NCBI RefSeq assembly: GCF_000317085.1
Contig: NC_019702.1
Span: 2,882,394 to 2,946,393, forward strand
Reading direction: 5' to 3'
DNA length: 64,000 bases
Origin: Synechococcus sp. PCC 7502
GTDB taxonomy: Bacteria > Cyanobacteriota > Cyanobacteriia > Pseudanabaenales > Pseudanabaenaceae
How positions within the stretch are numbered: position 1 is the stretch's first letter; every line of letters begins with the position of its first letter. The position numbers were made by a program, and so were the translations under genes. Of this stretch, positions 1,507-62,097 are shown piece after piece. The notes below the pieces were generated by a model. The model searched no databases, was not told the DNA's origin, and was given only the letters and a program-made list of their open reading frames with translations.

Positions 1507-1990
1507 TTATCCACAAGTTATAAAGTTATAATTATTTTGGTAGATGCCATAATTATGCAACATAGCAATTAATTAATCTTAAATGCGATAATTTTATAAG
1601 AATAGTTATCAAATCTTAAAATACAGAAATTTAAATACAGAAGCGTTTTACTCTCATTGTCCACACAAACAAGTTTCCCATTACTTCTGATGATCATTTG
1701 TATAGGGAAATGGTTGCTAGAGGAATGAAACAGGTTTTGAGATAAATTAAAATCAGTACTTTTCGTCAAGGCTATATTAATCTTGGATAGATACTAATGT
1801 TTCTCAGTATAAGTACTTATTTAAGATATTCTTAATGTACAAATATTAAAAAGTTAAGATTGAATATTGTTGTGAATTTTACCCTTGTGGGACTCATTCA
1901 TGGTTATTTGGGATAAAATAATAGTCTAACCATTTAGTTTCTACCTTTAGTAAAAAGTTTAATTGGTTAAAGTCTACTAGGATTAGCAAT
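1507..1990. other. AT-rich intergenic region
   Basis: This 484 bp region separates a minus-strand membrane protein gene from a plus-strand hypothetical gene, so promoters for both should lie here. I see no RNA gene, repeat or convincing ORF. A 66-codon minus-strand frame at 1569-1769 has low-complexity composition and no recognisable motif. Confidence 0.4.
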
Positions 1991-2434
1991 ATGTCACAAT
2001 CTCACCAATTTCTTGATAATAGAAAAATTGTCGTTTATCATATTAATTCAAAAGTTCCTCTTAGACGTAGTAGTGACCTAGAAGGAACAAACATTAGTGT
2101 TATTAATGGGAATGGTGTACTCAACCAAGTTCTAAAAAGAATCAAAGAAGGTGACGTTGAAGTTCTAATTACGATTGACATTCCGCGCGAAACCGTCAAG
2201 TTAATTGAAGTAGCGATCGATAAAAGTCATCATTATATCCTTCTCATTCAGCATGAATTAAAAGGACACGAAACTAGGGAAAGTTTTCTAACAGAAATCG
2301 AATCGAAGGTATTGGTGGCAGAAGGGGGTACCTCTTATAGGATCAATTATTCTGACGAACCAGTGCTATCTTTAGACCCTGGTGAACTAGAAAGGAGAAA
2401 GTTAAAATTAGATCAGACTGATAATAACAACTAA
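1991..2434 (+). CDS. Hypothetical protein, 147 aa
   Basis: An isolated gene encoding a soluble, charged protein of 147 residues that I do not recognise. It has alternating strand and helix character, with a central segment rich in I, V and E (VEVLITIDIPRETVKLIEVA) and a polar C-terminal tail ending in DNNN. There is no signal peptide or membrane segment. Codon use, including a near-HIP1 gcgatcga, looks native. Upstream is a long AT-rich spacer and downstream lies the convergent end of secA, so it is probably monocistronic. Confidence 0.6.
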   Translation: MSQSHQFLDNRKIVVYHINSKVPLRRSSDLEGTNISVINGNGVLNQVLKRIKEGDVEVLITIDIPRETVKLIEVAIDKSHHYILLIQHELKGHETRESFLTEIESKVLVAEGGTSYRINYSDEPVLSLDPGELERRKLKLDQTDNNN

Positions 2435-2670
2435 TTATACAAACTAACTAGTCGAATTATTTATTGCTCAATTTTTCGTATTTTTTGTTCCGTGAGTTCA
2501 ATATTCTTATATTGTCAACTCTGAGGTGCAACTATTTTTTGCTACTACTTTGGTGTTCTTTGAGCTATCAAAAATTTAAACTCCTCATTAGTATAGCCTG
2601 AAAAATTAGGGCTTTCAGACTTTTAGTTGCACATGGGGTCTAGGAATCTATGTTAGTAAATTAAGGAACT

Positions 2671-5457: not shown

Positions 5458-5762
5458 GATTAGCTAGAAATACGGGAGTTTATATAAGTTATATTAGCTG
5501 AGAAATAGTGCCTAAATATTAGAGTTAACCCTAATTGTTTAAATTGATTGATTACTATTTTAGAAAATTTTAGGAAATTATCATCTTTGTATAGCAGGAT
5601 AAGAGGGAGAAAAAACTAAGTTAGGATGATTGAATCTAAATTATTCATGGAATTTTGGCAAATTTTGATCTTTCTTAGGCTTTTTAAACAAAAATTCCCA
5701 TTATCCTTAAAGTGCGTACAACAAAAATAAGGATTTTGGGATTAGAGAATATAAATAATAAT
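5458..5762. other. Intergenic region upstream of secA, downstream of desD
   Basis: This 305 bp spacer lies between the secA start and the desD stop (both minus strand). It should hold the secA promoter and the end of the desaturase operon transcript. It is AT-rich, and I find no clear hairpin terminator, RNA gene or ORF. Confidence 0.35.
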
Positions 5763-6881
5763 TTATTTAGCTGGTGCCATCGCCATTTGTTTTAGCCATT
5801 GGTAATTAGCAGCGATCGCTGATCCGAAAGTGGGGTAGACATTATATTTAATCCCAAATTCTTCACAAACTTCAGCGACAATGCCAGCGATTTGCGGATA
5901 GTGGATATGGCAAACATGGGGAAAAAGGTGATGGATGGTTTGGTAGTTAAGTCCGCCAATGTACCAGTTCAAAAAGGCATTTTTAGGAGCAAAATCCACT
6001 GTGGTTTTCACCTGTAAGACTGCCCATTCATCATCAATATGATTAGAGGTAGCATTCACTTCCACAAATTCCGCAGGGACTAGGACATGAGCTAACATAA
6101 ATACTACACAGGTGACTAAGCCATAGGTCATGTAGGCAATGGAAAACCCAGCGATTGCCATTAACGGTGAATATCCCAAAGCGATCGGTAGTCCAATGAA
6201 AAATCCTAATCCTAAAGCCTTTAAGCCAAATAGAAAAGTTAAATCTAAAGGTTTGGGCATCGGCACCTTGTGATCAAAGTATTTGCGATCACCCAAAATA
6301 ATGGCAATATCGCTGTAAGACCAATAGAAAGGAATTACCAAATATACAAACCAAATAAATAGATGCTGATAGCGATGAAACCACTTATGTTCCATGTCTG
6401 GAGCCATTCTGACTAAGCCATCACCGTGAATTTCCACATCATGATTAGTAATGTTGGTATAGGTGTGGTGCAGAAAATTATGCCGATACCGCCACAGGTA
6501 GCTAGATAAGCCAATAAAGTCGTAGCACAGCCCGATCGTATAATTAATTTTAGGATTTTTAGAATAACCACCGTGATTAGCATCATGTCCCACACTCATC
6601 CCACAGGCAGCGATCGCCATCCCCAGAGAAATACAGCCTAAAACTTTAAAGCCAATGATTACAGGGGCAAAAACCACAAAAGCCCAAGAGCCAAACATCC
6701 AAGCGGTAATCGTGACAGTTTTGACATACATTGCCAAGTTATCCCGAGGCTTAATATTATTGGAGCTAAAGTAGGCATCAACTCTTTTATTTAATTCCTT
6801 CTTAAAACCAATACTTTTACCGAAGGTGACTCGGTCAGCTTTCAGGGATTTCTGATCCACAGTGTTTGCAGTCATTGTCAT
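5763..6881 (-). CDS. desD: Delta-6 acyl-lipid desaturase (DesD-like)
   Basis: This membrane di-iron desaturase inserts a cis double bond at delta-6 of C18 lipid-bound fatty acids. The 372 residues carry the three histidine boxes: HDANH, HNFLHH and QTIHH. Gln instead of His opening the third box is the mark of front-end desaturases. Long stretches such as SSYLWRYRHNFLHHTYTN and HDVEIHGDGLVRM agree with what I remember of cyanobacterial DesD. Four hydrophobic segments fit the family topology. It starts one base after the stop of the upstream desC gene, so the pair is co-transcribed. Confidence 0.9.
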   Translation of the reverse strand: MTMTANTVDQKSLKADRVTFGKSIGFKKELNKRVDAYFSSNNIKPRDNLAMYVKTVTITAWMFGSWAFVVFAPVIIGFKVLGCISLGMAIAACGMSVGHDANHGGYSKNPKINYTIGLCYDFIGLSSYLWRYRHNFLHHTYTNITNHDVEIHGDGLVRMAPDMEHKWFHRYQHLFIWFVYLVIPFYWSYSDIAIILGDRKYFDHKVPMPKPLDLTFLFGLKALGLGFFIGLPIALGYSPLMAIAGFSIAYMTYGLVTCVVFMLAHVLVPAEFVEVNATSNHIDDEWAVLQVKTTVDFAPKNAFLNWYIGGLNYQTIHHLFPHVCHIHYPQIAGIVAEVCEEFGIKYNVYPTFGSAIAANYQWLKQMAMAPAK

Positions 6882-6882
6882 C

Positions 6883-7779
6883 TTATTTAAGCCCCGCAGG
6901 TAGCCAAGGTGCAGGGATATAAACTTTTTTCGCTAATCCCACGGCTCGTAATAACCAGATCGCACCCCAAGTTGGATCAATTTCCCACCAATTTAAGCCA
7001 GCCCTTGCGGATTTCGGATAGGCATGGTGATTATTATGCCAGCCTTCACCGTAGGTTACTAATGCTGCCCACCAAAGATTGGTGGAATGATCGTCACTAT
7101 CACCAAAGTTACGGTAGCCCCATTTATGACAGGCGGAGTTAATAAACCAAGTGCTGTGAGAAACTAATACAGCCCTGACAAAAATGCCATAAATTACAAA
7201 GCCAATACCCTGTCCTTGGGTAGCTCCAATAAAATAGAGCAGGATGCCTAGGGGAATTTGTAAACTTAAAAAATATTTATCTAAAAAGCGATAGTAGGTG
7301 TCAGAACCTAGGTCTGGGGCAAAGCTATAGTAATTCTTAAAATCAAAATGTTCTTTTTTAGAATATAAAATCCAAGCTAAGTGACTCCACCAAAATCCTT
7401 TGCTGGCAGAATAGGGGTCTTTGTCATTATCTTCAGTAAACCCGTGATGCTGCCGATGTCCCCCCACCCAAAATACAGGACCACCTTGCAAAGCCAAAGC
7501 TCCAAGGGTGGCAAAAATATACTCTAGCCATTTGGGTACCTGAAAACTCCGATGACTCAAGAGCCGATGATAACCAAGACAAATACCGATGCTGCCCGTA
7601 AGCCAATGCAAAAATATTGTTAAACCTAGTGCTTGCCAAGAAAAATAGCCAAACCCTAAAAGAGCGATCGCATGCATGACAACATAGAAAATTGTAGTTG
7701 TCCAATTAAGTTGTAAAGACTCTTGATTATCTGGTTGGTTAGTCGGCTTTTGATTTGAATTTAAAGAGGTTGTGGTCAT
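6883..7779 (-). CDS. desC: Delta-9 acyl-lipid desaturase (DesC-like)
   Basis: This 298-residue membrane desaturase has the box HRLLSH, an HRQHH box and the third box HNNHH in GEGWHNNHHAYP. That set identifies the delta-9 family acting on stearoyl chains of membrane lipids. It supplies the monoenoic substrate for the delta-6 enzyme encoded immediately downstream, and the two reading frames are separated by a single base. The promoter should be in the 136 bp shared with the divergent TetR-like regulator, which makes that regulator a candidate controller of membrane desaturation. Confidence 0.92.
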   Translation of the reverse strand: MTTTSLNSNQKPTNQPDNQESLQLNWTTTIFYVVMHAIALLGFGYFSWQALGLTIFLHWLTGSIGICLGYHRLLSHRSFQVPKWLEYIFATLGALALQGGPVFWVGGHRQHHGFTEDNDKDPYSASKGFWWSHLAWILYSKKEHFDFKNYYSFAPDLGSDTYYRFLDKYFLSLQIPLGILLYFIGATQGQGIGFVIYGIFVRAVLVSHSTWFINSACHKWGYRNFGDSDDHSTNLWWAALVTYGEGWHNNHHAYPKSARAGLNWWEIDPTWGAIWLLRAVGLAKKVYIPAPWLPAGLK

Positions 7780-7915
7780 GAGGTACCCAAAAAGAAAGTA
7801 GGTAAAATTAGATTAATATAAGCCTCATATAAGTTAACATTGTTCAATTGAATTATGCAAGCAGCACTTGCAATTTTCAGAATTATTTAAGACTTGCATC
7901 CTACCCCCCAAAATC

Positions 7916-9094
7916 ATGGCTCTTGAGCGTATTCCCACTCGCCAAAAAATTGTTAATACTGCCTTAGAGTTATTTGCCCGCCAAGGGATTACGGAAACTA
8001 CTACCCGTCAAATTGCCGATCGCGCTGAAGTCAATGAAGTCACTTTATTTCGCCACTTTGGTAATAAACATGGATTACTACTAGCAGTACTTCAGGAGTT
8101 TCTACAGGAATATTTACTGGTTACCCAATTGGGAGAATCTTTAATTCCATCAGAATTTAAGAGTACGGTCGATTTGTCACAATTTTTGTACCACTATATG
8201 CAGAGTTCGTTGCACGCTTTAGAAAGTGTCCCTGAATTAATGCGATCGCTAGTGGGAGAAGCAGGACAATATCCCCAAGAAAGCCGTCATGCCCTAGCTC
8301 AGGGAATTACTGAAATTAATCGAGCGATCGCCAATGCTCTTCAAGAAGCTAAACCTCATCTAAATTCGACTTCAGAAACACTGAGTTTAGCCAAGATAAT
8401 GAATGCTTGTATTTTGGGTTATACAATTATGGTTTTAACCAGTGATGTGGAATTAATCTGGAGCAGCAAAGACGAGTTTATAGATAGTCTAGTTAAACTG
8501 CTGATACCAAAATCCTCTTCTCGCCTAGAAAATAATCCAGAAATTCAAGATATTCCAGAGGTTGAAGTTAGAAATATTCTGCTACAGGCAAAACGCCAAG
8601 GACTGAGAGACTATGCGATCGCCTATGTATTATTCGGAGCAGGGTTAAGTGCAGATGAGCTTGTTAATCTTAATCAAACTGATTATTCAATAGACTATTC
8701 CATTAATAAAGCGGGAATTCTCAAAATTCAAGAACGTTTAGTCCCTCTAAATCAAAAGATTTTTGGACATCGCTACGGCACCGCTAACAATAACCCGCTT
8801 ACCAATTACTTAAAAAGTCGTAAAGATAAGCATCCTCGCATGTTTTTATCCAATACAGCCCAACCTTTAAGCACATCAGAACTAGAACAACTATGGCGGA
8901 GTTGGCATAATTTAAGTTTTGAGATCGCCCAAACTCAACACACATGGCGGATTGAAATGTTAAGGCGGGGTATAGACCATGAAAATTTTCAAATTATTAG
9001 TGGTTTGCCTCAGTCAGAAATCTTAGCCTATGACCTCAAGGTCAAGGAATATCTAGCTCTTCAGCAGGCGATCGCTTTGGATAAATCAACATAG
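7916..9094 (+). CDS. TetR-family regulator fused to a degenerate tyrosine-recombinase-like domain
   Basis: The first ~55 residues form a TetR/AcrR helix-turn-helix (GITETTTRQIADRAEVNEVT, then LFRHFGNKHGLL), followed by a TetR-type ligand/dimer region to about residue 210. Residues ~225-393 look like the catalytic domain of a tyrosine recombinase: RDYAIAYVLFGAGLSADELV matches the RDxALxxLLxxTGLRxxEL block, and QHTWRIEMLRRGIDHENFQI matches the RHTFATxLLxxGxDxxxIQ block. The catalytic residues are lost (Arg I is Ser/Ala, Arg II is Gln, the LGH His is Leu), so strand cleavage is unlikely. I chose the ATG at 7916; an in-frame TTG 48 bp upstream is possible. It is divergent from desC. Confidence 0.75.
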   Translation: MALERIPTRQKIVNTALELFARQGITETTTRQIADRAEVNEVTLFRHFGNKHGLLLAVLQEFLQEYLLVTQLGESLIPSEFKSTVDLSQFLYHYMQSSLHALESVPELMRSLVGEAGQYPQESRHALAQGITEINRAIANALQEAKPHLNSTSETLSLAKIMNACILGYTIMVLTSDVELIWSSKDEFIDSLVKLLIPKSSSRLENNPEIQDIPEVEVRNILLQAKRQGLRDYAIAYVLFGAGLSADELVNLNQTDYSIDYSINKAGILKIQERLVPLNQKIFGHRYGTANNNPLTNYLKSRKDKHPRMFLSNTAQPLSTSELEQLWRSWHNLSFEIAQTQHTWRIEMLRRGIDHENFQIISGLPQSEILAYDLKVKEYLALQQAIALDKST

Positions 9095-9152
9095 CTTAAC
9101 TCTTGGCAGTCAATTTTTCCTTGAGTTTAATTCTACCTAACCTATGAGTTAT

Positions 9153-9232
9153 GCGGATGACTGGAATCGAACCAGCACGTCAAAGACACTAGAACCTAAA
9201 TCTAGCGCGTCTACCAATTCCGCCACATCCGC
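9153..9232 (-). tRNA. tRNA-Leu (anticodon UAG)
   Basis: On the minus strand the sequence folds as a class II tRNA. The acceptor GCGGATG pairs with CATCCGC, the anticodon stem is CTAGA/TCTAG with loop TTTAGGT (anticodon TAG, reading CUA codons), there is a long variable arm, and the T-loop is GGTTCGATTCC. No CCA is encoded. It lies between the TetR-like gene and tldD with no overlapping ORF. Confidence 0.93.
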
Positions 9233-9302
9233 TCAGGTTGACAATTATAGCCTAAGCCCACGGAAATATGTCAATTAATTTAGGCTAATTTGCACGGTAA
9301 TA

Positions 9303-10667
9303 CTATCTTCCACCTAAAACCACATTGCGAATCCGAATGTGAGGTCCACCCACACTTACGGGCAAGCCAGATTGTCCACCTTTGCCACAACCACCATTAC
9401 GATATACAGAATCCGAGGCGATCGCATCAATATCTTTAAGGGTTTGAAACACATTTCCACTCAAACTAATATCACTAACTGGCTCAGCTATTTGACCATC
9501 CCGAATCATGTAGCCCTCAGCCGCAGCAAAGGTAAACATTTCGCCGTTGGTCTGTCCCCCTAGCATACGCACCGCATAAACTCCTTCATCAATGCCACTA
9601 AGCATTTCCTCAAAACTATGGGAACCAGCTTCGATCGCCGTATTTGTCATCCGCACTAAGGGAGGATATTGTGCTGTCAAAGCCCTAGCATTACCCGTGG
9701 GAGTTTCATGGAGTTTACCTGCGGTTTCTAAGTTGTGCATACGCTGAGTCAGGATGCCATTTTTGATCAGATATTTTTTCTGGGCGGGTACGCCTTCATC
9801 GTCATAGACCATGCTACCTGGGAGGTTAGGAATGGTGGCATCATCAACCACATTTAATTCTGGAATCGCAATTTCTTTACCGAGGGTGAGTAATTCCTGC
9901 ATTCTGGGATTTTCATAGACAAAATCTGCTTCGGATAAATGCCCAAATGCTTCATGAATGAATACCCCTGCCAGATAGGGATCAAGAATTACCGTATATT
10001 GTCCACCTTTTACGGGTGAAGCTTCAAGTTGGCGCACGGCTCTTTTTGCAGTATCAACCACCAAGTCATCTAGGTTATCCATGATGTTAAAGCTGGTACG
10101 AGAGTTAACAGAGTCAAAGCCTTGCCGCACAGTACCCTCTTTACGGGCAATTACGCCAAATCTGCCTGATACATCTAAACGTTCTTGGGAAATACTGGTA
10201 CCACGGGAGTTGACATAATAGCTAGTGCCGAAGCGATCGCGGTATCCCGTCATGGTGGTTTGGATACGGGGATCGAATTCCAAGAGCATTTTGTTGTAGC
10301 GTTCTAAAATATCTCGCTTTTGATTTAAGGAAATACCACGGGGATCGTTTTCAATTTCCACTTTGACGATCGCCTGAATTGCGGGAACCTCAGCTAGTTG
10401 GGTAGTCTCGTTGCCGATTAGTTTTGCTTGAGAAATGGCAGTTTCAATGCGATCTTTCAGATTATTTAAATCATTAAATGTGACAAAACTCCAACCCCCT
10501 TTATGACAAGCACGAATGCCACCAGATAGACCAAAATTGCGATCAACTGAATTGAGTTGCGCTCCTTGAAAGGAAATACCTGTGGACTCACTTTGCTCTA
10601 AGCGGACTTCTAAAAAATCAACGGCTTGCAAATATGGGGCGATCGCTGACTGGAGTTGATCTTGCAT
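9303..10667 (-). CDS. tldD: TldD-type metalloprotease
   Basis: 454 residues of the TldD/PmbA (modulator of DNA gyrase) family. The zinc-binding HExxxH of TldD is present as HEAFGHLSEAD (about residues 239-249). The C-terminal GGCGKGGQSGLPVSVGGPH segment is typical of this subunit. In E. coli, TldD with TldE forms a protease that trims peptides such as microcin B17 and degrades CcdA. No tldE/pmbA partner is visible here. HExxxH makes this the catalytic TldD subunit rather than TldE. Confidence 0.9.
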   Translation of the reverse strand: MQDQLQSAIAPYLQAVDFLEVRLEQSESTGISFQGAQLNSVDRNFGLSGGIRACHKGGWSFVTFNDLNNLKDRIETAISQAKLIGNETTQLAEVPAIQAIVKVEIENDPRGISLNQKRDILERYNKMLLEFDPRIQTTMTGYRDRFGTSYYVNSRGTSISQERLDVSGRFGVIARKEGTVRQGFDSVNSRTSFNIMDNLDDLVVDTAKRAVRQLEASPVKGGQYTVILDPYLAGVFIHEAFGHLSEADFVYENPRMQELLTLGKEIAIPELNVVDDATIPNLPGSMVYDDEGVPAQKKYLIKNGILTQRMHNLETAGKLHETPTGNARALTAQYPPLVRMTNTAIEAGSHSFEEMLSGIDEGVYAVRMLGGQTNGEMFTFAAAEGYMIRDGQIAEPVSDISLSGNVFQTLKDIDAIASDSVYRNGGCGKGGQSGLPVSVGGPHIRIRNVVLGGR

Positions 10668-40743: not shown

Positions 40744-44382
<3,639 letters not shown>

Positions 44383-51049: not shown

Positions 51050-51361
51050 ATGCTAAATCCATACTCAAGTAGCCTAACAGATAAAGAATGGGAAATTATA
51101 GAACCATTGCTCCCAAAGAAAAAGCAAACTAGACCGCCAACTTGGACAAAAAGACAAATTTTAGACGGCATACTCTACCAACTCAAAAACGGTTGTAATT
51201 GGCGAGATATGCCCCGAGACTTACCACCATTCTCTACAGTGTATCGATACTACAAGGAGTGGAAAGATACAGGTACATTTACTGCGATTATGGAAGCTTT
51301 GCATTCAACAGCCCGTGAACAGTCAAAAAAAATCAAAATGGACAACTTTAATCATCATTGA
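51050..51361 (+). CDS. IS5-family transposase ORF A
   Basis: 103 codons with the DNA-binding N-terminal part: MLNPYSSSLTDKEWEIIEPL, then ILDGILYQLKNGCNWRDMPR and YKEWKDTG. The frame runs on past the overlap, so ORF A alone ends in KMDNFNHH. An A8 run at 51325-51332 lies in the overlap with ORF B. A shift of +1 (or -2) there would join the frames into a ~280-residue transposase. Confidence 0.88.
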   Translation: MLNPYSSSLTDKEWEIIEPLLPKKKQTRPPTWTKRQILDGILYQLKNGCNWRDMPRDLPPFSTVYRYYKEWKDTGTFTAIMEALHSTAREQSKKIKMDNFNHH

Positions 51362-51899
51362 CTCACAAGCAGTGAAAAATACTTGTAATGCAAGTATAGA
51401 ATCCAAGGGCTTCTGCTCCTACAAAGCAACTAACGGGATCAAAAGACATTTAGCCGTTGACATACTGGGATTTCCTTTTTTCACCTATTTAACAAGAGCA
51501 AATGTATCAGATGACCAAGGACTGATTGAGATGTTAACGTTTAACATTGATTACTTCAAATCGAAGCCAGATGACATTACCCTAACTACGATATTGCTGG
51601 ATAGTGGTTATCATATCGAAAAATTGACGACTGATTTACAGAAGGTTTATCCTGAGATTATGACTAAGATTAGGTTTGAAATTTCTCCTAAGGTATCAAA
51701 GCAACAGAAGGCAGAAAAAGGTCTGTCTGGGTTTGTAGTTGTGCCGACAAGGTGGGTAATTGAAAGGTCAAATGCTTGGGTTGAAAGATGCAAAATCTTA
51801 GTTAAGAACTTTGAGAGAACTCTCGTTAATGCTACAGCTAAACTCAATCTTTGCTTTATTCGTTTGATGCTAAAAAGAATTGCTACTCATGAGATATGA
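51315..51899 (+). CDS. IS5-family transposase ORF B (DDE domain)
   Basis: 194 codons in the next frame, probably translated only as a fusion with ORF A. It holds the catalytic domain: LIIIDSQAVKNTCNAS (first Asp), LLDSGYHIEKL (second Asp) and WVIERSNAWVERCKILVKN (Glu of the YREK-like block), then LCFIRLMLKRIA. The WVIERSNAWV block is precisely what the deleted copies A and B have lost. Confidence 0.88.
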   Translation: MNSQKKSKWTTLIIIDSQAVKNTCNASIESKGFCSYKATNGIKRHLAVDILGFPFFTYLTRANVSDDQGLIEMLTFNIDYFKSKPDDITLTTILLDSGYHIEKLTTDLQKVYPEIMTKIRFEISPKVSKQQKAEKGLSGFVVVPTRWVIERSNAWVERCKILVKNFERTLVNATAKLNLCFIRLMLKRIATHEI

Positions 51900-51908
51900 A
51901 ACAGGCTC

Positions 51909-52482
51909 TATAAGCATGATTGTTTGGTTCGGCATTAATATAATCGGACTAAATGGCAAAGTGAGATTCTTTTGTCAAGATGAAACACGAATTGGGTTAA
52001 AGACAATTAGTGGAAGGAAGATCACAGCAAGAGGAGTCAAACCCAAAGGTAAAGTTCAGTGGCAGTTTAAGGCAACTTACCTCTATCGAATTGTAGAACC
52101 ATCAACAGGGGAAAGCTTTTTCTATGAATTTACTCACCTTAATAGTGAATGCTTCCAAGTATTTCTGAACTTAGTAAGCGCATATTTTCAAGGTGACATC
52201 ATCGTTATGCAAGTGGATCAAGCAGGAGCACACAGAGCAAAACGGTTAAAGATTCCTAAAAATATTATTTTGCTATTTCAGCCTGCCCATGCACCTGAGA
52301 CTAATCCCATTGAAAGAGTGTGGCAGCATTTCAAATTAGGGTTGAGGTGGAAACTGCCAAAAGATCTTGACCAGTTGCGTGCATTAATGCGGGAAAGGTT
52401 AGAAGTTATGACTCAGGAGGTAATTGCTTCGATTGTTGGGTGGGATTATATTTTAGAGGCTTTATCTGTAGCTCGTATTTAA
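51909..52482 (+). pseudogene. IS630-family transposase, C-terminal DDE half
   Basis: The frame entering from the IS right end encodes VRFFCQDETRIGLKTISGRK, IIVMQVDQAGAHRAKRLKIP and HAPETNPIERVWQHFKLGLR: the three catalytic acids (D, D, E) of IS630 transposases. The N-terminal helix-turn-helix half is missing. It is a different IS630 from the relic at 35.4-36.5 kb. Confidence 0.82.
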
Positions 52483-52933: not shown

Positions 52934-55900
52934 CTATGTAGATTCATTGCATATTTCCATAATTTTTTGATCGAGAATAGGACTTAAATATTCAATATTG
53001 GGTTGAGAAATAATATCATGTCCACAGGGAATCTTAATAACTGTAACATCTCCTTTTAATAATCTTTCCCATCCGTAGTATGGAAATAGCCATGAAAAAT
53101 CGGAACAGAATAGCGGATTCTCTTTTACAATAAATCGAATTTTTCTTGTTCCCATAAATAATAGTACTCTGTCATTATAAGGTCTACGATTATAGATTTT
53201 TGAACCCATATCAGCTATTGATGGATTTGCTATAGTTGGTTTAGATTGAACTTTAGGATTTAGGTATTTATTAATCCTATCAATGAGATAGTGCCATTTA
53301 TCATCAATGGATAGAAGTAAAAGAAGTTTGATAATTGATATAAATTGATCAAGCCGCTCGCATAATTTATACAAAATTGAGGGTTTCGGATATGTTTCAA
53401 GAAGGACTAGGAGAGTTATTTCTTTTCTACGTTTTTTTAGTTGATTTGCCATTTCTATTGCGATTAATCCCTCAAAACAATAGCCCCCCAACATAAATGA
53501 ATCAGAGGTATGTACTGTCAGTAATTCATCTACTAAAAGTGAAGCAATTGCCTCAATCTCAATATATTCTTCTTGAGAATCTACAAGGGTTTGGTGACTA
53601 AAGGTTGGCATAACGTATATTGGTTGCTGAAGCCGCAAATTCTTGGCAACTTTTATATCCCCAATCCAAACAAAAGGTTGAGAGTTAGTCCCATAGGCAT
53701 TATCAATATTGGGCATTACTTCTACAATTAACCCTCTTCTACCTATATGATTTCCTTGGCGACCAGCACTGTGGGCAAGTAAATCTCGATAATATTTTAA
53801 AGTCAGTCCTGATGGAATTTCCATTGTCTCTTGTTCATGTCGACGGAGCCATAAAGCAAGTTCTTCTATGGTACTGAGTTTGAAAAATGACATTAATGGT
53901 AGAGTGCAGTTAAAAGCTTTTTCTATGTCTAATACCAAACGGATAGAAAGTAAAGAATGTCCACCTAAATCAAAGAAGTTATCGTTAATACTAATGGGAT
54001 GGTGATTTAAATGTTTCTCCCAGATTGTTGCTAATTGCTGTTCTGTGCGATCGCGAGGAGGAATAAAGTTATTGGTTGTCATAGATGACTGTGGATTGGG
54101 TAGCGCACTACGATCGACCTTGCCATTGGCATTTAGGGGGAATTGATCTAAGAACACAAAGGCAGATGGCGTCATGTATTCTGGTAGCTGACCTTTCAAA
54201 AAATTGCGTAATTTATTATTAGTTAACGTCACTTGCGACACAATATAAGCAACGATTCGTTTGTCTCCTGGAATATCTTCACGGGCGATCGCCACAGCAT
54301 TGATAATATCTGGATGTTTACTAAGAACTGCTTCAATCTCTCCTAGCTCAATTCTAAAACCTCGAATCTTTACTTGATTGTCTATACGTCCAATAAACTC
54401 AATATTACCATCGGGCAGGTAACGAGCTACATCTCCCGATTTATATAATTTCCCATTACCAAAAGGATTAGCAATAAACTTCTCAGCCGTTAATTCAGGT
54501 TGGTTAAGATAACTTCTAGCCAATCCATCACCGCCAATGTAGAGTTCACCTGACACTCCGATAGGAACTAGTTGCATATAGCGGTCAAGAATGTAAACTT
54601 GGGTGTTTGAAATTGGTCTTCCTATAGGTACAGAGCTTCTAAAATGGGTGGTTTCTGAAATTAGATGGGTACAGGTGAAAGTCGTGCCTTCTGTTGGACC
54701 ATAACCATTAATTAGATGACAGTTTTTTAAAGTTGATAAAGCTTTTTGAACATGGGGAATAGATAGAACATCACCGCCAGCTAAGAGTTGACGTATAGGC
54801 TTTAAATCCTCAATATGATTATCTACCATTAAATTAAATAGTCCAGATGTGAGCCAGAGGGTTGAAATTTGATGCTGCTGGATAACCTGTCCTAATTTCT
54901 GGAGGCTGGGAGCATGGGGTGGAAAAATAACTAACCGAGATCCATTAAGCAAGCTGCCCCAAATCTCAAATGTGGAGGCATCGAAAGCAAGTGGGGCAAG
55001 TTGCAGGAAGGTTTGTAATGAATTTAAATTTACATAATCAATACCCTTGACTAACCGAACAACGCTGCGATGGATTGTGCAGACTCCTTTGGGCTTGCCT
55101 GTGGAACCAGATGTGTAAATAATATAGGCTAGATCCGTAGGAATCGTGCCGCAATTAGGATTGTCTTGGTCTTCACCGTTGATTTCTTCTAGATCTGTAT
55201 CAAGATAAATAACCTGAAACTTATCTAAGGATAGATTCCCTAATAATGAATGTTGAGTGAGTAAAAATGGTGTTTGAATATCATCTAGAATAAATTGTAA
55301 CCGCTCCTTTGGATAATTTGGATCTAAGGGAACATAAGCACCACCAGCTTTTAATATGCCTAATAAACCTACGATCATTTCTATAGAGCGCTCCACACAA
55401 ATTCCCACCAATATTTCTGGTTTTACTCCTAAAGTTTGGAAATAGTGACCAAGCTGATTTACCCGATTATTTAGTTCTCTATAGGTAATTTGCTGATCTT
55501 CAAAAACTACGGCGATATTTTCAGGTGTTCTTTCTACCTGTTCCTCAAATAGCTGATGAATACATTTATCATGGGGATATTCCTTACTTGTATCATTCCA
55601 TTCAATTAATAATTGATGTTTTTCCTGTTCTGTGAGGATTGGCAACTTTTTAACTTGCAAATCTGGCTCAGCTATAATTCCAGCTAACAATACCTGAAAA
55701 TGACTGCTCATCCCTTCGATAGTAGTATCATCAAATAGATCTGTATTGTATTCCCACGTTCCCATTATTCCAGCACGAGATTCCGTTAAAGATAGAGATA
55801 TATCAAATTTGGAAGTTTGACTCTTTAACTCGATTGATTGCAATGTTAGGTCAGGTAATGTGAGAGTTTCTTGGGGAGTATTTTGTAAAATAAACATTAC

Positions 55901-58900
55901 TTGAAAAACAGGCGCATGACTTAGGCTTCTCTCTGGCTTTAGTTCCTCAACTAACTTCTCATAGGGTAAGTCTTGATGACTGTAAGCATCCAAACAAACT
56001 TCCTTTACGGATTTTAATAGTTCTTTAAAACTCGGATTATTTTTGATACTAATTTTCAATGCTAAAGTATTAGCAAAAAATCCTATTAACTTCTCAGTTT
56101 CCTGTCGATTACGATTGGCGATCGGCGAGCCGATTACTATATTTTCTTGATGACTGTAACGAGATAATAAGATTCCAAAAGCCGATAGTAATGTCATAAA
56201 TAAGGTCACGCCTGATTCTTGACTTAAGTCTCTTAGTCGTTGACTTACTTCTGCTGATAATTTGATTTTCTGGCTTTTTCCTCTATAGGTCTGGACATTC
56301 GGACGAGGTCTATCTGTAGGCAATTCTAAGATAGCAGGAATATTTGCTAATTGCTGTTTCCAATAGGATAGTTGCTGAGTTAAAACTTCCCCTTGCAACC
56401 AATTTTTTTGCCAATAGGAAAAGTCTGCGTATTGTATAGGTAAAGGAGCTAATGAGACAGATTCTCCATCAATAAAGTTTTGATAAAGAATTGATAACTC
56501 ACTTCTTAATATTCCCATTGACCAGCCATCGATAATGATGTGATGAAAGTTCATTAATAAAATATGGCTGTTTTCCTTGAGCTTTAATATTTTGGCTCTG
56601 AACAAAGGACTAACGGTTAACTTAAATGTATGATTTGATTCGGCGTGGGCTAACTCTTCCACTTGTTTTTGGACTGAGAGTTCAGCTAATTCTGTTAAAT
56701 CAATTACTGATAGAGTAACTTGTAAAGAAGGAGCAATAATTTGTACGGGTGAACCATCTATTGTGTTAAAACTTGTGCGAAAAATCTCGTGCCTGTCTAC
56801 AATGGTCTGAAAAGCTTTTTCAAGAGATTTTATATTTAGGTTACCTTCTAACTTTAAGACTAATGGTACGTTGTATGTTGCACTTTCTCCTTCTAATTGA
56901 TAGAGAAACCACATCCGAAATTGAGCAAAAGACAAGGGTAGGTTCTCTCGGTTTTTGAGAGGTTCAATGATAGTTAAAGTGGTTTCTAGATGATATTTCT
57001 GCTCGATCGCTTCAGCTAATTGGACTGGGGTAGGATGTTCAAACAAACTACGAATGCTAATTTCTTGTTTGAGAGCTATTTGTAATCGGGAAATCACCTG
57101 TGTCGCTAAAAGGGAATGTCCCCCAATTTCAAAGAAGTTATCTCTGCGATCTACTTCGGGGATTCCAAGTACTTCACTCCAAATTGAGGTGATGATTTCT
57201 TCTGTGCGGTTAGAGGGTGGACTAAATTCTGTTTCTCTCGATATTTCTGGTTTTGGTAAGGCTCGGCGATCAATCTTGCCACTGGGAGTCAAGGGCAACT
57301 GCTCTAGGATGACAAATGTGGAGGGAATCATGTATTCGGGTAGCTTTTGTTTTAGAAATTCGCGTAATTCCCTTTGACTTAATGTCACTTGTGACACTAC
57401 ATAAGCAACGATTCGTTTGTCTCCTGGAATATCTTCACGGGCGATCGCCACAGCATTGATAATATCTGGATGTTTACTAAGAACTGCTTCAATCTCTCCT
57501 AGTTCAATTCTAAAACCCCGAATCTTTACTTGATTGTCTATACGTCCAATAAACTCAATATTACCATCGGGCATATAACGAGCTAAGTCACCTGTTTTAT
57601 ATACTTTCCCTTCTCCAAACGGATTAGCAATAAACTTCTGATTGGTTAATTCAGGGCGATTCAAATAACCTCTTGCTAGTCCATGTCCACCAATATGTAA
57701 CTCTCCAAGCACACCGATGGGAACTGGCTGCAAGTAAGCATCGAGAATATAGGCTGTTACATTAGGAAGCGGACGACCTATTGGTGGACTTTTTGTACTT
57801 GATTTTACAAGGTAGAAAGATGACCAAATCGTAGTTTCGGTCGGTCCATATAGATTCCATAGTTCCTTGGTTTTGGGAAGGAGACGACTAGCCAATTCTT
57901 GGGATAAAGCTTCTCCCGTGACAATAACCTTAAGTTGATTGCTGCCTTGCCATCCGACAGTCAAAAGCATTTGCCAAGTAGCTGGGGTAGAAATCATAAA
58001 AGTTATCGGTGATCGCCGAATTACCTCAGCCAGTTGATAACCATCCTTAGCGACTTCCGAGCTAACTATACGAAGCCTAGCACCAATCATAAGAGTTAAA
58101 AATATTTCTGATACAGCAACATCAAAAGCAATGGTTGTTAATGTGCATACTGTGTCTTCGCAGGTCAAATTAAGTTTTGGGCAGATATTTGATAGAAGAT
58201 TGACTACATTACTATGTCGGATTTGTACCCCTTTAGGATTTCCAGTCGAACCTGAAGTATAGATAACATAGGCTAAATTTTCAGAGGTTATATCACTCTT
58301 TAAATTTTGGGTGCTTTGTTGAGCGATCATCTTTTGATCTCGTTCAAGATCAACAATGTTAGTACATGATGCAAACTTAAAAGTGAGATTGGTTTGACTA
58401 ACGATTGGATTATCTAGCTGTGCATCTTTAACTAAATAGTCTAATCGTTCCTGAGGATAAGCTGGATCTAATGGAACATAAGCGCCCCCAGCTTTTAATA
58501 TGCCTAATAAACCTACGATCATTTCTATAGAGCGCTCCACACAAATTCCCACTAATACCTCTGGTTTTACGCCTAAAGTTTGGAGGTGGCAAGCAAGTTG
58601 ATTTGCCCGATTATTTAGTTCTCTATAGGTGATTTCTTGATCTTCAAAAACTACAGCGATGTTTTTAGGTGTTCTTTCTACTTGTTCCTCAAATAGTTGA
58701 TGAATGCATTTATCGTGGGGATATTCCGCAAATGTATCATTCCATTGTTTGAGAATTTTGACTTGCTCAGAAAATGTCAGAAAGGGAATAGTGGAGATCG
58801 AGCGATCCGGATTATCAACTATAGATTGCAGAAGGTTCTCATAATGATTCTTCATGCCAGCAATAGTTATATCCTTAAATAAATCAGTGCTATATATAAA

Positions 58901-60211
58901 TGTTCCTACTAGCTCCGATTCAATTTCTCTTAAGGTTATGGCAAGATCAAATTCAGTAGTTCTAGAATCAAAAGTGCTGATGTTAAACCAAGATTGGGAA
59001 GCTTTCTGCTCTACTTTAGGTAAATTATGAAAATTAAAGAGAACTTGAAATAGGGGAGAATAACTCAAATCCCTTTCAATTTTCAACTCTTCTATGACTT
59101 TCTCAAAAGGAATTTCTTGGTGAGATTGCGCTTCTAAAACAGTAGCTCGAACTTGTGACAATAATTCTTTAAATGATAGCGTTTCTAATATTTTTGTGCG
59201 TAAAGGCAAAGTATTGAGAAAGCAACCAATTAAGTGTTCAGTTTCTAAATTATTTCTTCCAGAAATAGGAGTGCCAACAGTAATATCGGTTTGATGACTA
59301 TAGCGATACAGGAGAATCTTAAAAGCGGTCAGTAAGGTAATGAATAGGGTTACACCTGAACTTTGACTTAGAATTTTAAGGGCATTGGTTAGAGGTTTGG
59401 AGATAGTGATCGATATACTCTGCCCTTGATTACTACTAATATGGGGACGAGGATAATCCGTAGGTAGATTAATAGTTGATACTTGATCTTTAAGTTTTGC
59501 TTTCCAGTAATCTAGTTGTTTTTGAAATTTATTTTGACTAAATTGGGTTCTTTGCCATATTGAAAAATCAGCATATTGGATGCTTAAAGCGGGTAGAATA
59601 GAGGGTTGATCGGTCAGGAAAGTTTCATAGAAGTAATTTAGTTCCGTTAGGAAAATTTGCGAAGACCAGCGATCGCTAGCAATATGATGTATAACAATCA
59701 GAAGAGTATATTCTTCGCCATTTAACTTAAAGAGAATGTTACGAAGAGGGAAATCAAAAGATAGATTGAAGGGTTGATTAGTGTGTTTTCTTACTTCTGC
59801 TTCTAGATATTCATGGCGATCGCTTAGGTCAATTATGGGTATGGGTATATTAATTGCGTCTACGCTATGAATAATTTGATAAAGTTTGCCATCGTCTTCC
59901 ATCTTATAGGTAGTTCGCAATACTTCATGGCGATCAATTATTGCGTACAATGCCTTATTAATAGCCTTAATATTAGCTGGTTGAGTAAATTTTAGAGTTC
60001 TAGAATTATTGTAAACAGAACTCTGTGGGAAGAGTTGTTGAACAAACCAGAACCTTTGTTGAGCGAAAGATGCGAGGCAAGGAAAATCTATAGGTCTGGG
60101 TGCAATTAACCGTTTAGAAGTATTTGCTAATTTACTCAAGCGATCGCTTAAAATCTGTCTCTTCTTAGGTGATAGGTTAGCAAGTCGTTGATTAATTGAA
60201 TCTAGATGCAT
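52934..60211 (-). CDS. Non-ribosomal peptide synthetase, C-A-T-C-A-T-TE
   Basis: 2425 residues with the following layout:
- C1: ~47-460, with HHIASDR, where HHxxxDG has lost its Gly.
- A1: ~500-960, YTSGSTGNPKGV, LYGPTETT.
- T1: GGHSLLATQVI, ~1032.
- C2: ~1090-1500, HHIIIDGW.
- A2: ~1555-2010, YTSGSTGKPKGV, GYGPTEGT.
- T2: GGHSLLSIRL, ~2082.
- TE: ~2130-2425.
Pocket residues read by eye against GrsA are D-V-S-I-I-T-L-I-W-K for A1 (no confident substrate; glycine-like end) and D-A-F-W-L-G-G-T-F-K for A2 (valine signature). The TE nucleophile position is Cys2245 (GYCFEG), with His in CGHDII. The product is probably a short peptide with Val last, started by the upstream A-T protein. Confidence 0.92.
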   Translation of the reverse strand: MHLDSINQRLANLSPKKRQILSDRLSKLANTSKRLIAPRPIDFPCLASFAQQRFWFVQQLFPQSSVYNNSRTLKFTQPANIKAINKALYAIIDRHEVLRTTYKMEDDGKLYQIIHSVDAINIPIPIIDLSDRHEYLEAEVRKHTNQPFNLSFDFPLRNILFKLNGEEYTLLIVIHHIASDRWSSQIFLTELNYFYETFLTDQPSILPALSIQYADFSIWQRTQFSQNKFQKQLDYWKAKLKDQVSTINLPTDYPRPHISSNQGQSISITISKPLTNALKILSQSSGVTLFITLLTAFKILLYRYSHQTDITVGTPISGRNNLETEHLIGCFLNTLPLRTKILETLSFKELLSQVRATVLEAQSHQEIPFEKVIEELKIERDLSYSPLFQVLFNFHNLPKVEQKASQSWFNISTFDSRTTEFDLAITLREIESELVGTFIYSTDLFKDITIAGMKNHYENLLQSIVDNPDRSISTIPFLTFSEQVKILKQWNDTFAEYPHDKCIHQLFEEQVERTPKNIAVVFEDQEITYRELNNRANQLACHLQTLGVKPEVLVGICVERSIEMIVGLLGILKAGGAYVPLDPAYPQERLDYLVKDAQLDNPIVSQTNLTFKFASCTNIVDLERDQKMIAQQSTQNLKSDITSENLAYVIYTSGSTGNPKGVQIRHSNVVNLLSNICPKLNLTCEDTVCTLTTIAFDVAVSEIFLTLMIGARLRIVSSEVAKDGYQLAEVIRRSPITFMISTPATWQMLLTVGWQGSNQLKVIVTGEALSQELASRLLPKTKELWNLYGPTETTIWSSFYLVKSSTKSPPIGRPLPNVTAYILDAYLQPVPIGVLGELHIGGHGLARGYLNRPELTNQKFIANPFGEGKVYKTGDLARYMPDGNIEFIGRIDNQVKIRGFRIELGEIEAVLSKHPDIINAVAIAREDIPGDKRIVAYVVSQVTLSQRELREFLKQKLPEYMIPSTFVILEQLPLTPSGKIDRRALPKPEISRETEFSPPSNRTEEIITSIWSEVLGIPEVDRRDNFFEIGGHSLLATQVISRLQIALKQEISIRSLFEHPTPVQLAEAIEQKYHLETTLTIIEPLKNRENLPLSFAQFRMWFLYQLEGESATYNVPLVLKLEGNLNIKSLEKAFQTIVDRHEIFRTSFNTIDGSPVQIIAPSLQVTLSVIDLTELAELSVQKQVEELAHAESNHTFKLTVSPLFRAKILKLKENSHILLMNFHHIIIDGWSMGILRSELSILYQNFIDGESVSLAPLPIQYADFSYWQKNWLQGEVLTQQLSYWKQQLANIPAILELPTDRPRPNVQTYRGKSQKIKLSAEVSQRLRDLSQESGVTLFMTLLSAFGILLSRYSHQENIVIGSPIANRNRQETEKLIGFFANTLALKISIKNNPSFKELLKSVKEVCLDAYSHQDLPYEKLVEELKPERSLSHAPVFQVMFILQNTPQETLTLPDLTLQSIELKSQTSKFDISLSLTESRAGIMGTWEYNTDLFDDTTIEGMSSHFQVLLAGIIAEPDLQVKKLPILTEQEKHQLLIEWNDTSKEYPHDKCIHQLFEEQVERTPENIAVVFEDQQITYRELNNRVNQLGHYFQTLGVKPEILVGICVERSIEMIVGLLGILKAGGAYVPLDPNYPKERLQFILDDIQTPFLLTQHSLLGNLSLDKFQVIYLDTDLEEINGEDQDNPNCGTIPTDLAYIIYTSGSTGKPKGVCTIHRSVVRLVKGIDYVNLNSLQTFLQLAPLAFDASTFEIWGSLLNGSRLVIFPPHAPSLQKLGQVIQQHQISTLWLTSGLFNLMVDNHIEDLKPIRQLLAGGDVLSIPHVQKALSTLKNCHLINGYGPTEGTTFTCTHLISETTHFRSSVPIGRPISNTQVYILDRYMQLVPIGVSGELYIGGDGLARSYLNQPELTAEKFIANPFGNGKLYKSGDVARYLPDGNIEFIGRIDNQVKIRGFRIELGEIEAVLSKHPDIINAVAIAREDIPGDKRIVAYIVSQVTLTNNKLRNFLKGQLPEYMTPSAFVFLDQFPLNANGKVDRSALPNPQSSMTTNNFIPPRDRTEQQLATIWEKHLNHHPISINDNFFDLGGHSLLSIRLVLDIEKAFNCTLPLMSFFKLSTIEELALWLRRHEQETMEIPSGLTLKYYRDLLAHSAGRQGNHIGRRGLIVEVMPNIDNAYGTNSQPFVWIGDIKVAKNLRLQQPIYVMPTFSHQTLVDSQEEYIEIEAIASLLVDELLTVHTSDSFMLGGYCFEGLIAIEMANQLKKRRKEITLLVLLETYPKPSILYKLCERLDQFISIIKLLLLLSIDDKWHYLIDRINKYLNPKVQSKPTIANPSIADMGSKIYNRRPYNDRVLLFMGTRKIRFIVKENPLFCSDFSWLFPYYGWERLLKGDVTVIKIPCGHDIISQPNIEYLSPILDQKIMEICNEST
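54245..54417 (-). repeat. Near-identical A-domain tract, module 2 copy
   Basis: This 173 bp tract differs at only two positions from 57401-57573. It encodes the A8-A10 part of the adenylation domain (IDNQVKIRGFRIELGEIEAV and on to IPGDKRIVAY). Sequence on both sides is clearly more diverged, so this is a recent copy or conversion tract inside the NRPS gene. Confidence 0.9.
55344..55408 (-). repeat. Identical A-domain tract at A2 motif, module 2 copy
   Basis: 65 bp identical to 58488-58552, encoding the A2-motif region (CVERSIEMIVGLLGILKAGG). The surrounding ~300 bp are roughly 85-90% alike by eye. It marks the upstream border of the diverged substrate-pocket region. Confidence 0.88.
57401..57573 (-). 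repeat. Near-identical A-domain tract, module 1 copy
   Basis: Partner of 54245-54417 (two mismatches in 173 bp), downstream border of the diverged pocket-coding region of A1. Confidence 0.9.
58488..58552 (-). repeat. Identical A-domain tract at A2 motif, module 1 copy
   Basis: Partner of 55344-55408, identical over 65 bp, in the start of the A1 adenylation domain. Confidence 0.88.
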
Positions 60212-60234: not shown

Positions 60235-62097
60235 TTAAGGTAATTGCTCAATTTCATCTAACATTTTTTCTATATCTATCTCAGATGTTAATTGAATTTG
60301 ATATTGAATAATTTTATCTGCCATTGCTGCGACTGTTGCTGACTCTAGTAGAAGATTAGGTGAAAGATTGATATAAAATTTCTCTAGGACTCTAGACACA
60401 ATTTGCATTGCTTGGATGGAGCTACCTCCTAGCTCAATAAAATTATCATTTATGCTAATTCGAGAGAGTTGTAAAACAGACTCCCAAATTTCTAATATCT
60501 CTGTTTCCAGAGAATTACGCGGCGGCATAAAAGAGTTATCGACATCTGGAAGACTCCAGTCAATGGGAGGCAATTTACTCCGATCTATTTTACTATTTGT
60601 AGTAGTAGGAAGAGTCTCTAAAATCACAAACTTAGAGGGAATCATATAACTTGGCAATTTCTCTACTAGAGCTGCACGAATTAATTTAATTTCAGGGGTA
60701 AATCCTTGCTTAGGAACGATATAAGCAGCAAGACGAATTTCGCCTGATAAATCACTAACCCCTACTACCACAGCTTGCCTAATTCCCTCAATATCTAGCA
60801 ATGCACCTTCAATTTCTGAAGGCTCTACACGATAACCTCGAATTTTGAGCATGAAGTCTTTGCGTTGTATCCATTCTAAGCATCCATCGGGCTGCATTCG
60901 CCCTAAATCACCTGTTAAATAAATGCGTTCATCACTACCATCGGTCGTGGGCAAAAATTTTTTATTGGTTAACTCTGGGTTCCGCCAATAACCTTGAGAA
61001 ATATAGCGACTTTTGACGGTAATCTCACCGATTTGATTAAAGCCAAGTCTTTTTCCTGAATCATCTACTAAAAAGACATCCTTTCCTTCCTTCGCATAAC
61101 CCACAGGCACGTTATTGCCCTTAATTTCAGTAGGACTACTAATAACTAATCTAGTTATCAAACTTGTTTCAGAACTTGCTAATTTTTGAACTACATAACA
61201 TCTATCAGATATGTGCCTTTTAATCTTTTCTATATCTTTTTTATAAAATTTCCCTCCTGGTGAAATATAGCGTAAATCGGGAAATTGATCCTTTGCCGTC
61301 AATGTCTCAATCCATTGCTGAAATAGGCTTACGGGAAGACGTAAAATAGTAATTTTCTCATCAATTAGCCATTGAGTTAACCAATTCAAACCTCGTTCGA
61401 GAATACTGCCAACGCATAGGGTACCACCAGTGAGTAGAGCGTTAAAAATATCAGAGGTGGATGATGTAAAAGCACTGGACGTGAGCATAGTAAAGCGATC
61501 GCTAGCCTTAATCTGCAAATCATTTGTGTCAGTATACACCCGATGAAGAATCATTCGAGAGTCACGCATTACACCCTTAGGCTGACCAGTGGAACCAGAG
61601 GTATAAACAATATTACATAAACTATTAGGAGCGATCACTATATTCAAGTTCTCTTGAGGATAGCTTTGATCCATCTCATCCACATTCATAATACTTACTG
61701 AATGTTGAGCTAACTGTTTTACTAGAGTTAGATTCTGTTTATCAGTAATAATTAATTTGGCTTCTAGGTCTTTTAAAATATAATTTAGTCTTGTTAGTGG
61801 AGTATCAGGATTGAGAGAAACATATGCCTTGCCTGTCTTTAAAATTCCCATTATTCCAATAATTACGGCAACATCATGATCGCAGATTAAAATAATCGGC
61901 TCCTCTCCCCGTCCTCGCTTATCCAAAATTGCATGAGCTAGTTGATTTACTGATTGATTTAACTCTCGATAAGTAAGGATACTATTCTTCCCTTTTACAG
62001 CTTGGCGATCGCTATAATGGTTAACAATCTTTTCAAATCTCTCAGGAATAGATGCTTCAACTTCAACTTTGGAAAATCCTATAAAAGTATCTATCAT
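60235..62097 (-). CDS. Stand-alone adenylation-carrier protein (A-T didomain), atypical pocket
   Basis: 620 residues: an adenylation domain (~15-525) and a phosphopantetheine carrier domain (~540-610, NFIELGGSSIQAMQIV with the modified Ser). ATP motifs are intact (IVYTSGSTGQPKGVM, YLTGDLGRMQPDG, IRGYRVEPSEIE, final NSKIDR Lys). The pocket is not that of an amino-acid A domain. The Asp235 position is Thr (AFTSSTSDIF), and the usual YGPTE is KLASSET. The absent Asp argues against a free alpha-amino group in the substrate, so a carboxylic, hydroxy or keto acid starter is possible. It ends 23 bp before the NRPS start. Confidence 0.85.
   Translation of the reverse strand: MIDTFIGFSKVEVEASIPERFEKIVNHYSDRQAVKGKNSILTYRELNQSVNQLAHAILDKRGRGEEPIILICDHDVAVIIGIMGILKTGKAYVSLNPDTPLTRLNYILKDLEAKLIITDKQNLTLVKQLAQHSVSIMNVDEMDQSYPQENLNIVIAPNSLCNIVYTSGSTGQPKGVMRDSRMILHRVYTDTNDLQIKASDRFTMLTSSAFTSSTSDIFNALLTGGTLCVGSILERGLNWLTQWLIDEKITILRLPVSLFQQWIETLTAKDQFPDLRYISPGGKFYKKDIEKIKRHISDRCYVVQKLASSETSLITRLVISSPTEIKGNNVPVGYAKEGKDVFLVDDSGKRLGFNQIGEITVKSRYISQGYWRNPELTNKKFLPTTDGSDERIYLTGDLGRMQPDGCLEWIQRKDFMLKIRGYRVEPSEIEGALLDIEGIRQAVVVGVSDLSGEIRLAAYIVPKQGFTPEIKLIRAALVEKLPSYMIPSKFVILETLPTTTNSKIDRSKLPPIDWSLPDVDNSFMPPRNSLETEILEIWESVLQLSRISINDNFIELGGSSIQAMQIVSRVLEKFYINLSPNLLLESATVAAMADKIIQYQIQLTSEIDIEKMLDEIEQLP

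Follow-up and report, generated by a model that had tools for sequence, protein, structure and literature searches.

The two adenylation (A) domains of a nonribosomal peptide synthetase (NRPS) from the cyanobacterium Synechococcus sp. PCC 7502 carry nearly identical flanks around specificity cores that resemble each other no more than background. The gene was analyzed as part of a 64,000-nucleotide stretch of the genome (contig NC_019702.1, positions 2,882,394 to 2,946,393; hereafter the window), in which it is the sole NRPS gene noted. Its product has two modules, each consisting of condensation (C), A and peptidyl carrier protein (PCP) domains, followed by a thioesterase (TE). The two modules form a mosaic of identity, the trees of their flanks and cores conflict, the flanks are specific to the sister module, and the two flanks are of unequal age. 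We explain this by recurrent short-patch gene conversion between the modules that stops at the divergent core, i.e., by concerted evolution of the A-domain flanks, and put the probability of this explanation at about 0.63.

Identity of the two modules changes abruptly along the A domains

Both modules were aligned codon by codon and divided by change-point segmentation. Identity was 50.5% in the C domains (1326 nt), 88.4% in the N-terminal flank of the A domain (N flank, 303 nt), 42.3% in the core (684 nt), 72.8% in a taper on the core side of the following segment (180 nt), 98.8% in that segment, a C-terminal tract (C tract, 171 nt), and 54.6% in the remainder through PCP (441 nt), PCP itself being at 38–47% in 20-codon windows (coordinates in Table 1). 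The boundary is sharp at three of the four tract edges: from 50.5 to 88.4% in the linker, from 88.4 to 42.3% at motif A2 and from 98.8 to 54.6% after motif A8. The fourth edge, that of the C tract toward the core, is gradual (72.8%). Divergence is not confined to the core, as the stretches outside both islands are also divergent. The N flank runs from the WNDT linker to just past motif A2, and the C tract covers motif A8 with its surroundings and the opening portion of the small subdomain, motifs A2, A7 and A8 being contained in the flanks.

A preliminary description of this DNA had reported two repeats shared by the modules, and both were found exactly, to the base. On one diagonal the modules match without interruption over at most 65 bp (55344-55408 = 58488-58552), and on the other a 173-bp repeat with two mismatches (54245-54417 = 57401-57573) contains a 102-bp exact run. 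The homogenised flanks extend beyond these repeats, over 303 bp upstream and over 171 bp plus the 180-bp taper downstream. The different pocket residues that had been read from the two domains, D-V-S-I-I-T-L-I-W in A1 and D-A-F-W-L-G-G-T-F in A2 (in GrsA/Stachelhaus numbering), were also recovered. Sliding identity along the A domains gave a mosaic and no uniform divergence.

One origin proposed for the repeats in the preliminary description was a recent module duplication, and this part of it fell. A recent duplication of the whole module, with the core diverging later under selection, would place adjacent modules with common A-domain flanks side by side, as observed, but it misfits because both neighbours outside the islands are divergent: C1 and C2 are 50.5% identical in DNA and 41% in protein, the stretch after the C tract is at 54.6%, PCP is no closer, and the cores fall into different clades (see below). 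The C and PCP domains, not being as alike as the A flanks, refute it, and we regard it as very improbable. In a tree of 42 C domains, comprising the two from the window and others drawn from 187, C1 does stand beside C2, but support for the join is no more than 55.9 and the branch of C1 is very long (1.71), and we take this join as no evidence either way. C2 is 54–56% identical to C domains of other cyanobacteria.

Flank identity is specific to the sister module and extends to silent sites

For comparison, 233 non-overlapping A-domain matches were collected from a scan of named genomes and from related genomes. After removal of short, stop- or N-bearing and identical sequences and of own-genome copies 190 domains were kept, three of them from the window, so that each domain was ranked against 189 others. 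In the N flank the sister module ranked first of 189 with an identity of 0.884, the next best being 0.723 for A1 and 0.733 for A2. In a wider C flank of 264 bp the sister again ranked first (0.920; next best 0.700 for A1 and 0.716 for A2). The cores were 0.456 identical, and here the sister ranked 125th of 189 for A1 and 128th for A2, which is background. Across the taper, the rank of the sister in sliding windows rose from 78th near the core to first near the C tract (of 182–189), and the taper identity is above background only in part.

Ordinary conservation of A-domain motifs or codon bias could make flanks alike, and conserved motifs are present in both of them. Among residues shared by A1 and A2, identical codons were used at 69 of 87 in the N flank and 71 of 80 in the C flank; in the other A domains the medians of this share were 0.385–0.432 and the maxima 0.588–0.660. 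Third codon positions matched at 82 of 101 sites in the N flank and 55 of 57 in the C tract, compared to 65 of 227 in the core. Since silent sites carry the signal, protein constraint fails as an explanation; none of the other domains exceeded 0.733 in the same stretches, and the paralogous flanks are more alike than either is to its outside relatives, silent sites included. Flank and codon identity thus refute motif conservation, which has next to no probability left. In a permutation test (2000 replicates, 1438 polymorphic sites) the best null segment scored 39, compared to observed scores of 181 and 160. Of 2941 random between-locus pairs of A domains, 99.9% had a longest exact run of no more than about 50 bp, and the extreme was 113 bp. 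The 102-bp run taken alone is rare, not unprecedented; two islands around a core at 0.456 are exceptional. We conclude that the flank identity is the result of recombination and not of conservation.

Flanks and cores have different phylogenies

Trees were built for 56 of the 189 A domains by a quick method, with support from the Shimodaira-Hasegawa-like approximate likelihood ratio test. The flank DNA tree joined A1 and A2 with a support of 100. In the core protein tree A1 fell into an 18-row clade (support 99) and A2 into a different clade (support 100), and forcing the two cores together was rejected (log-likelihood difference 114, approximately unbiased test p = 9.97e-06). Besides A1, which has DVSIITLIW, its clade has 17 members, and in 15 of them the code is DILQLG[LMV][IV]W, of glycine type. 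All seven other members of the smallest clade with A2, of eight rows, carry DAFWLGGTF, a code of valine type. By these codes A2 would be predicted to take valine and A1 a residue other than glycine. The trees are therefore incongruent, and this conflict supports gene conversion to both sides of a specificity core that differs between the modules, as the preliminary description had proposed. Cores of different lineages between sister flanks are also the pattern by which exchange of the A-domain core (Acore exchange) is recognized in the work of Baunach et al. (2021).

Proposed conversion events, their ages and the probable partner

The two flanks differ in divergence, with 35 mismatches in 303 bp of the N flank and 2 in 171 bp of the C tract (p = 1e-5), and a 65-bp exact run inside the 88.4% identical N flank has a probability of 0.004 under uniform divergence. 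Both observations require at least two conversion events. In the mechanism that we propose, A1 and A2 would be A domains of different origin whose conserved flanks were overwritten between modules of one gene by short gene conversion tracts. Upstream, the converted stretch would reach from the last part of the C-A linker to motif A2; downstream, it would reach from motif A8 to where the small subdomain begins. The conversions would stem from at least two events of different ages. The tracts would halt where homology ends, leaving the core, C and PCP domains different. The agent was presumably homologous recombination of the RecA type, and the partner would be the sister module itself.

As to the partner, C-domain matches in the 3.58-Mb genome number only two, both in this gene. 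A stand-alone A domain at 60235-62097 was, among the 189 domains compared, outside the top matches for either flank. Another A domain of the same genome, about 108 kb past the end of the window, is only 0.584 (N flank) and 0.595 (C flank) identical to A1 and to A2, and as a source of the flanks it is unsupported. With only two C-domain matches in the genome and its other A domains matching poorly, the sister module is likely to be the partner, as judged from these comparisons.

Both flanks might instead have come from a third module, in a lost cluster or another organism, and not from each other. Ancestry tests that picked no source for the flanks leave room for such a donor and are no direct evidence of it. 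The G+C content at third codon positions (GC3) of the cluster is below that of most other window genes sampled, and one same-genus genome compared (85% complete) had no strong match to the cluster, which may have been assembled elsewhere. Against a third module, no compared A domain other than the sister exceeded 0.733 in either flank, the other A domain of the genome is as distant as stated above, and 82 plasmid records had a match, but in none of them did a single place cover 80% of the query. We consider such a source improbable.

Possible exchange of the core

The same mosaic could arise if the whole A domain, from the linker to motif A8, had been copied onto its sister and one core had then been replaced from an outside module, with the identical flanks serving as homology arms. 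This would account for two identical flanks around a core at background, and copying of a whole A domain does occur: another locus (L184) has a pair of A domains without a single difference over 1443 bp, and a third domain, of different code, matches them exactly in runs of 394 and 346 bp. The core-proximal breakpoints, around motif A2 and after motif A6, lie in natural exchange zones mapped by Calcott et al. (2020) and Baunach et al. (2021).

Several observations speak against such a replacement. The search for a donor core found none above 60% amino acid identity for A1 or 66% for A2 in 388 genomes, with at most six candidates scored per genome, so that a closer core in a module-rich genome may have been missed. 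GC3 is 0.29–0.30 in the cores and 0.28–0.29 in the C domains; the cores bear no compositional mark, their composition being the same as that of the rest of the gene, and a recent foreign core was rejected on this ground. The ages of the flanks differ. The taper on the C-terminal side is at 72.8%, where near-identity is expected at a recent junction, and flank identity on one side only, such as is described below, is not expected of a duplicated domain whose core was swapped. We hold core replacement to be unlikely, while giving it serious weight. An exchanged core, as in the preliminary description, thus keeps some probability: the cores are of different lineages, but neither a close donor among the candidates scored nor an orthologous cluster nor a deviating GC3 was found to mark an exchange. 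The demonstrably recent event is conversion of the flanks and not exchange of the core.

The three NRPS modules of L184 lie at 1300-9446; the third A domain has the code DAWFFGNVV, compared to DAFWLGGTF in the other two, and a core identity of 0.59 to them.

How often flanks are alike around divergent cores

Two sets of loci were surveyed. The first was chosen by linker and N-flank motifs (219 stretches, 103 relatives, the best 80 kept) and leans toward alike N flanks. Among 123 within-locus pairs in this set the window pair had the largest contrast (0.89; next, 0.70), and only one of the 122 other pairs had both flanks at 0.85 or above with a core at 0.60 or below. Of 126 within-locus pairs with a core at 0.60 or below, eight were alike in the N flank only, three in the C flank only and one in both. 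When each domain was assigned its best match, this match came from the same locus in 30 of 154 cases for the N flank, 43 of 154 for the C flank and 11 of 154 for the core, compared to a mean of about 1 upon permutation of labels. Flanks are thus alike within a locus more often than cores, in a set biased to alike N flanks. A one-sided case is provided by the A domains at 5026-6543 and 8215-9726 of locus L044, whose C flanks are the same over an uninterrupted 265 bp; their N flanks are at 0.66 and their cores at 0.55.

The second set consisted of 40 hand-picked stretches favouring multimodular genes; 37 were at places found by the C-domain search, the exceptions being L178 and L185, from the matches to the A1 core and to A1, respectively, and L184, from those to the A2 core. 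It gave 184 same-strand pairs in 38 loci. None had both flanks at 0.85 or above with a core at 0.60 or below, three were high in the N flank and one in the C flank, and the next contrast after the window pair was 0.64. Without the three exceptions, 166 pairs in 35 loci remained, none high in both flanks and one high in each of the N and C flanks, with a top contrast of 0.51. Genomes G015, G021 and G028 occur in both sets, and further overlap is possible. Between-locus contrast stayed at or below 0.41 over 3916 random draws. In either set, the window pair shows more contrast than any other.

A special mobility of A1-type cores was also considered. Many high-contrast pairs of the first set include a member of the A1 clade, but these loci were selected by A1 and A2 motifs, and in the 184 pairs of the second set no association was seen (Spearman 0.05, p = 0.48); the idea was abandoned.

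Weighing conversion between the modules

Several points weigh against gene conversion between the two modules as we propose it. Among shared residues, the N flank and the wider C flank show no significant difference in codon identity (p = 0.14), so that a single older event plus one recent patch would be enough. In the flank ancestry tests, joining the window flanks to relatives of the A1 core or to relatives of the A2 core was rejected in both cases, and no source or direction was chosen. An orthologous cluster was found neither in the named-genome scan nor in the related genomes, which leaves no before-and-after comparison and no direction; the first named-genome scan gave no relative, and the second gave 79 loci with a best segment identity of 59%. 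A tract lies on each side of the core, as core exchange would also yield. An unsampled third donor of both flanks, improbable as it is, would remove the sister as partner. Finally, the count of one-sided pairs rests on loci that were selected by N-flank motifs.

Gene features and surroundings

The Pfam stretches in the NRPS gene are two each of Condensation, AMP-binding, AMP-binding_C and PP-binding and one Thioesterase. The features discussed above are listed in Table 1.

Table 1. Features of the NRPS gene, in positions of the window
Feature	Position	Strand	Remarks
NRPS gene	52934..60211	(-)	2425 aa, C1-A1-PCP1-C2-A2-PCP2-TE
C1 domain	58745..60082	(-)	not homogenised with C2; 50.5% DNA, 41% aa
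A1 N-terminal flank, homogenised	58442..58744	(-)	303 bp; contains 65-bp exact repeat 58488-58552
A1 specificity core, divergent	57752..58441	(-)	code DVSIITLIW; 42.3% to A2 core
A1 taper region	57572..57751	(-)	72.8% to A2 counterpart
A1 C-terminal conversion tract	57401..57571	(-)	171 bp, 98.8%
C2 domain	55601..56941	(-)	nearer to C domains of other species than to C1, by identity
A2 N-terminal flank, partner copy	55298..55600	(-)	contains 55344-55408
A2 specificity core	54596..55297	(-)	code DAFWLGGTF; from segmentation and ranking against other A domains
A2 taper region	54416..54595	(-)	partner of A1 taper, by segmentation
A2 C-terminal conversion tract, partner copy	54245..54415	(-)	from repeat match and segmentation

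Read by eye, the C1 domain has the motif HHIASDR in place of the HHIIIDG of C2, the canonical form being HHxxxDG. C1 might serve as an unusual acceptor for the A-PCP protein encoded separately next to the gene at 60235-62097. The thioesterase (52937-53791) reads GYCFEG, with Cys at the usual Ser position of the GxSxG motif. The thioesterase of a related cluster, L121 (11762-17788), likewise has GYC. This cluster, from another family of the same class, is a smaller look-alike in which a stand-alone A-PCP gene lies beside a one-module C-A-PCP-TE gene; its A-PCP is 39% identical to that at 60235-62097, and its A core is nearer to A1 (50%) than to A2 (38%).

Just downstream of the NRPS gene, at 51315-52482, are two transposase open reading frames (ORFs; DDE_Tnp_1 and DDE_3), perhaps remnants. 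GC3 is 0.23–0.36 in the NRPS gene and its A-PCP neighbour, compared to 0.32–0.52 in seven other window genes sampled. Given the transposase ORFs and the low GC3, the cluster may have been acquired. At 5814-6794 of L122, 3.4 kb past the end of the window, a truncated AMP-binding and PCP frame was seen by eye near importer genes, the wider match crossing a TAG stop; this is probably a decayed A-PCP gene. The ORF at 42208-44382, by eye presumably a catalase-peroxidase, has a GC3 of 0.52, well above the other window genes sampled, which suggests horizontal origin.

Relation to known systems and significance

A close precedent is the concerted evolution of such domains described by Medema et al. 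(2014). In NRPS and polyketide synthase (PKS) clusters, internal recombination makes the domains of a cluster resemble each other more than their outside relatives, and divergent function can shield a domain from it (PMC4256081). There, in calcium-dependent lipopeptide clusters, it affects the A domains and the majority of C domains; here, only the A flanks are affected, and the core is spared. In the microcystin synthetase pair mcyB1/mcyC (Fewer et al. 2007, PMC2174460), two modules belonging to the same cyanobacterial cluster likewise recombined only in the A domain and its surroundings; C domains were not transferred, and the authors speak of sequence homogenization. In contrast to our case, the overwritten part was the specificity region itself (motifs A1-10 and on into the thiolation domain, A2-A10 or A3-A8). 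In mcyA2, the greater part of the specificity region was reported to have undergone gene conversion (PMC3640908), and gene conversion has been noted to blur duplications (PMC9205934).

Acore exchange (Baunach et al. 2021, PMC8097286), reported to occur across phyla, also yields mosaic A domains with breakpoints flanking the core, leaving the C-A linker and the small subdomain (Asub) mostly untouched. It rests on related pairs of clusters with known products, whereas here no ortholog was found and the datable events are in the flanks. A 2025 study of cyanobacteria describes the core as the hotspot (PMC12184294). Calcott et al. (2020, PMC7486941) located recombination hotspots in the C-A linker, between motifs A2 and A4 and from near motif A5 onward, and the island edges described here (linker, motif A2) lie in or beside these zones; their result is statistical, over many clusters of Pseudomonas, Bacillus and Streptomyces, and ours is a single case with tract ages. 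Judged by titles and abstract openings, none of the literature matches listed has as its subject A-domain flanks that were converted while the core between them stayed unchanged. As a process, such conversion is known, and the pair is a good natural example of it.

A broader view would be that A-domain flanks of cyanobacterial NRPSs are converted again and again, mostly on one side only, and thereby kept matched to each other as common homology arms, the core being shielded by its own divergence; the flanks would then be maintained docking sites enabling later exchanges of cores. We give little credence to this generalization at present.

The pair itself is a clean case of flanks recently overwritten around a pocket that was not, with support from silent sites and tracts of unequal age. 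Flank identity of this kind could pass for the scar of a core swap, but conversion of the flanks, with no swap that can be demonstrated, accounts for it no less well. Among the motif-selected loci this is supported by 11 one-sided pairs compared to one two-sided pair of 126. Caution would therefore be in order when the natural units of exchange that guide NRPS engineering are inferred from such identity.

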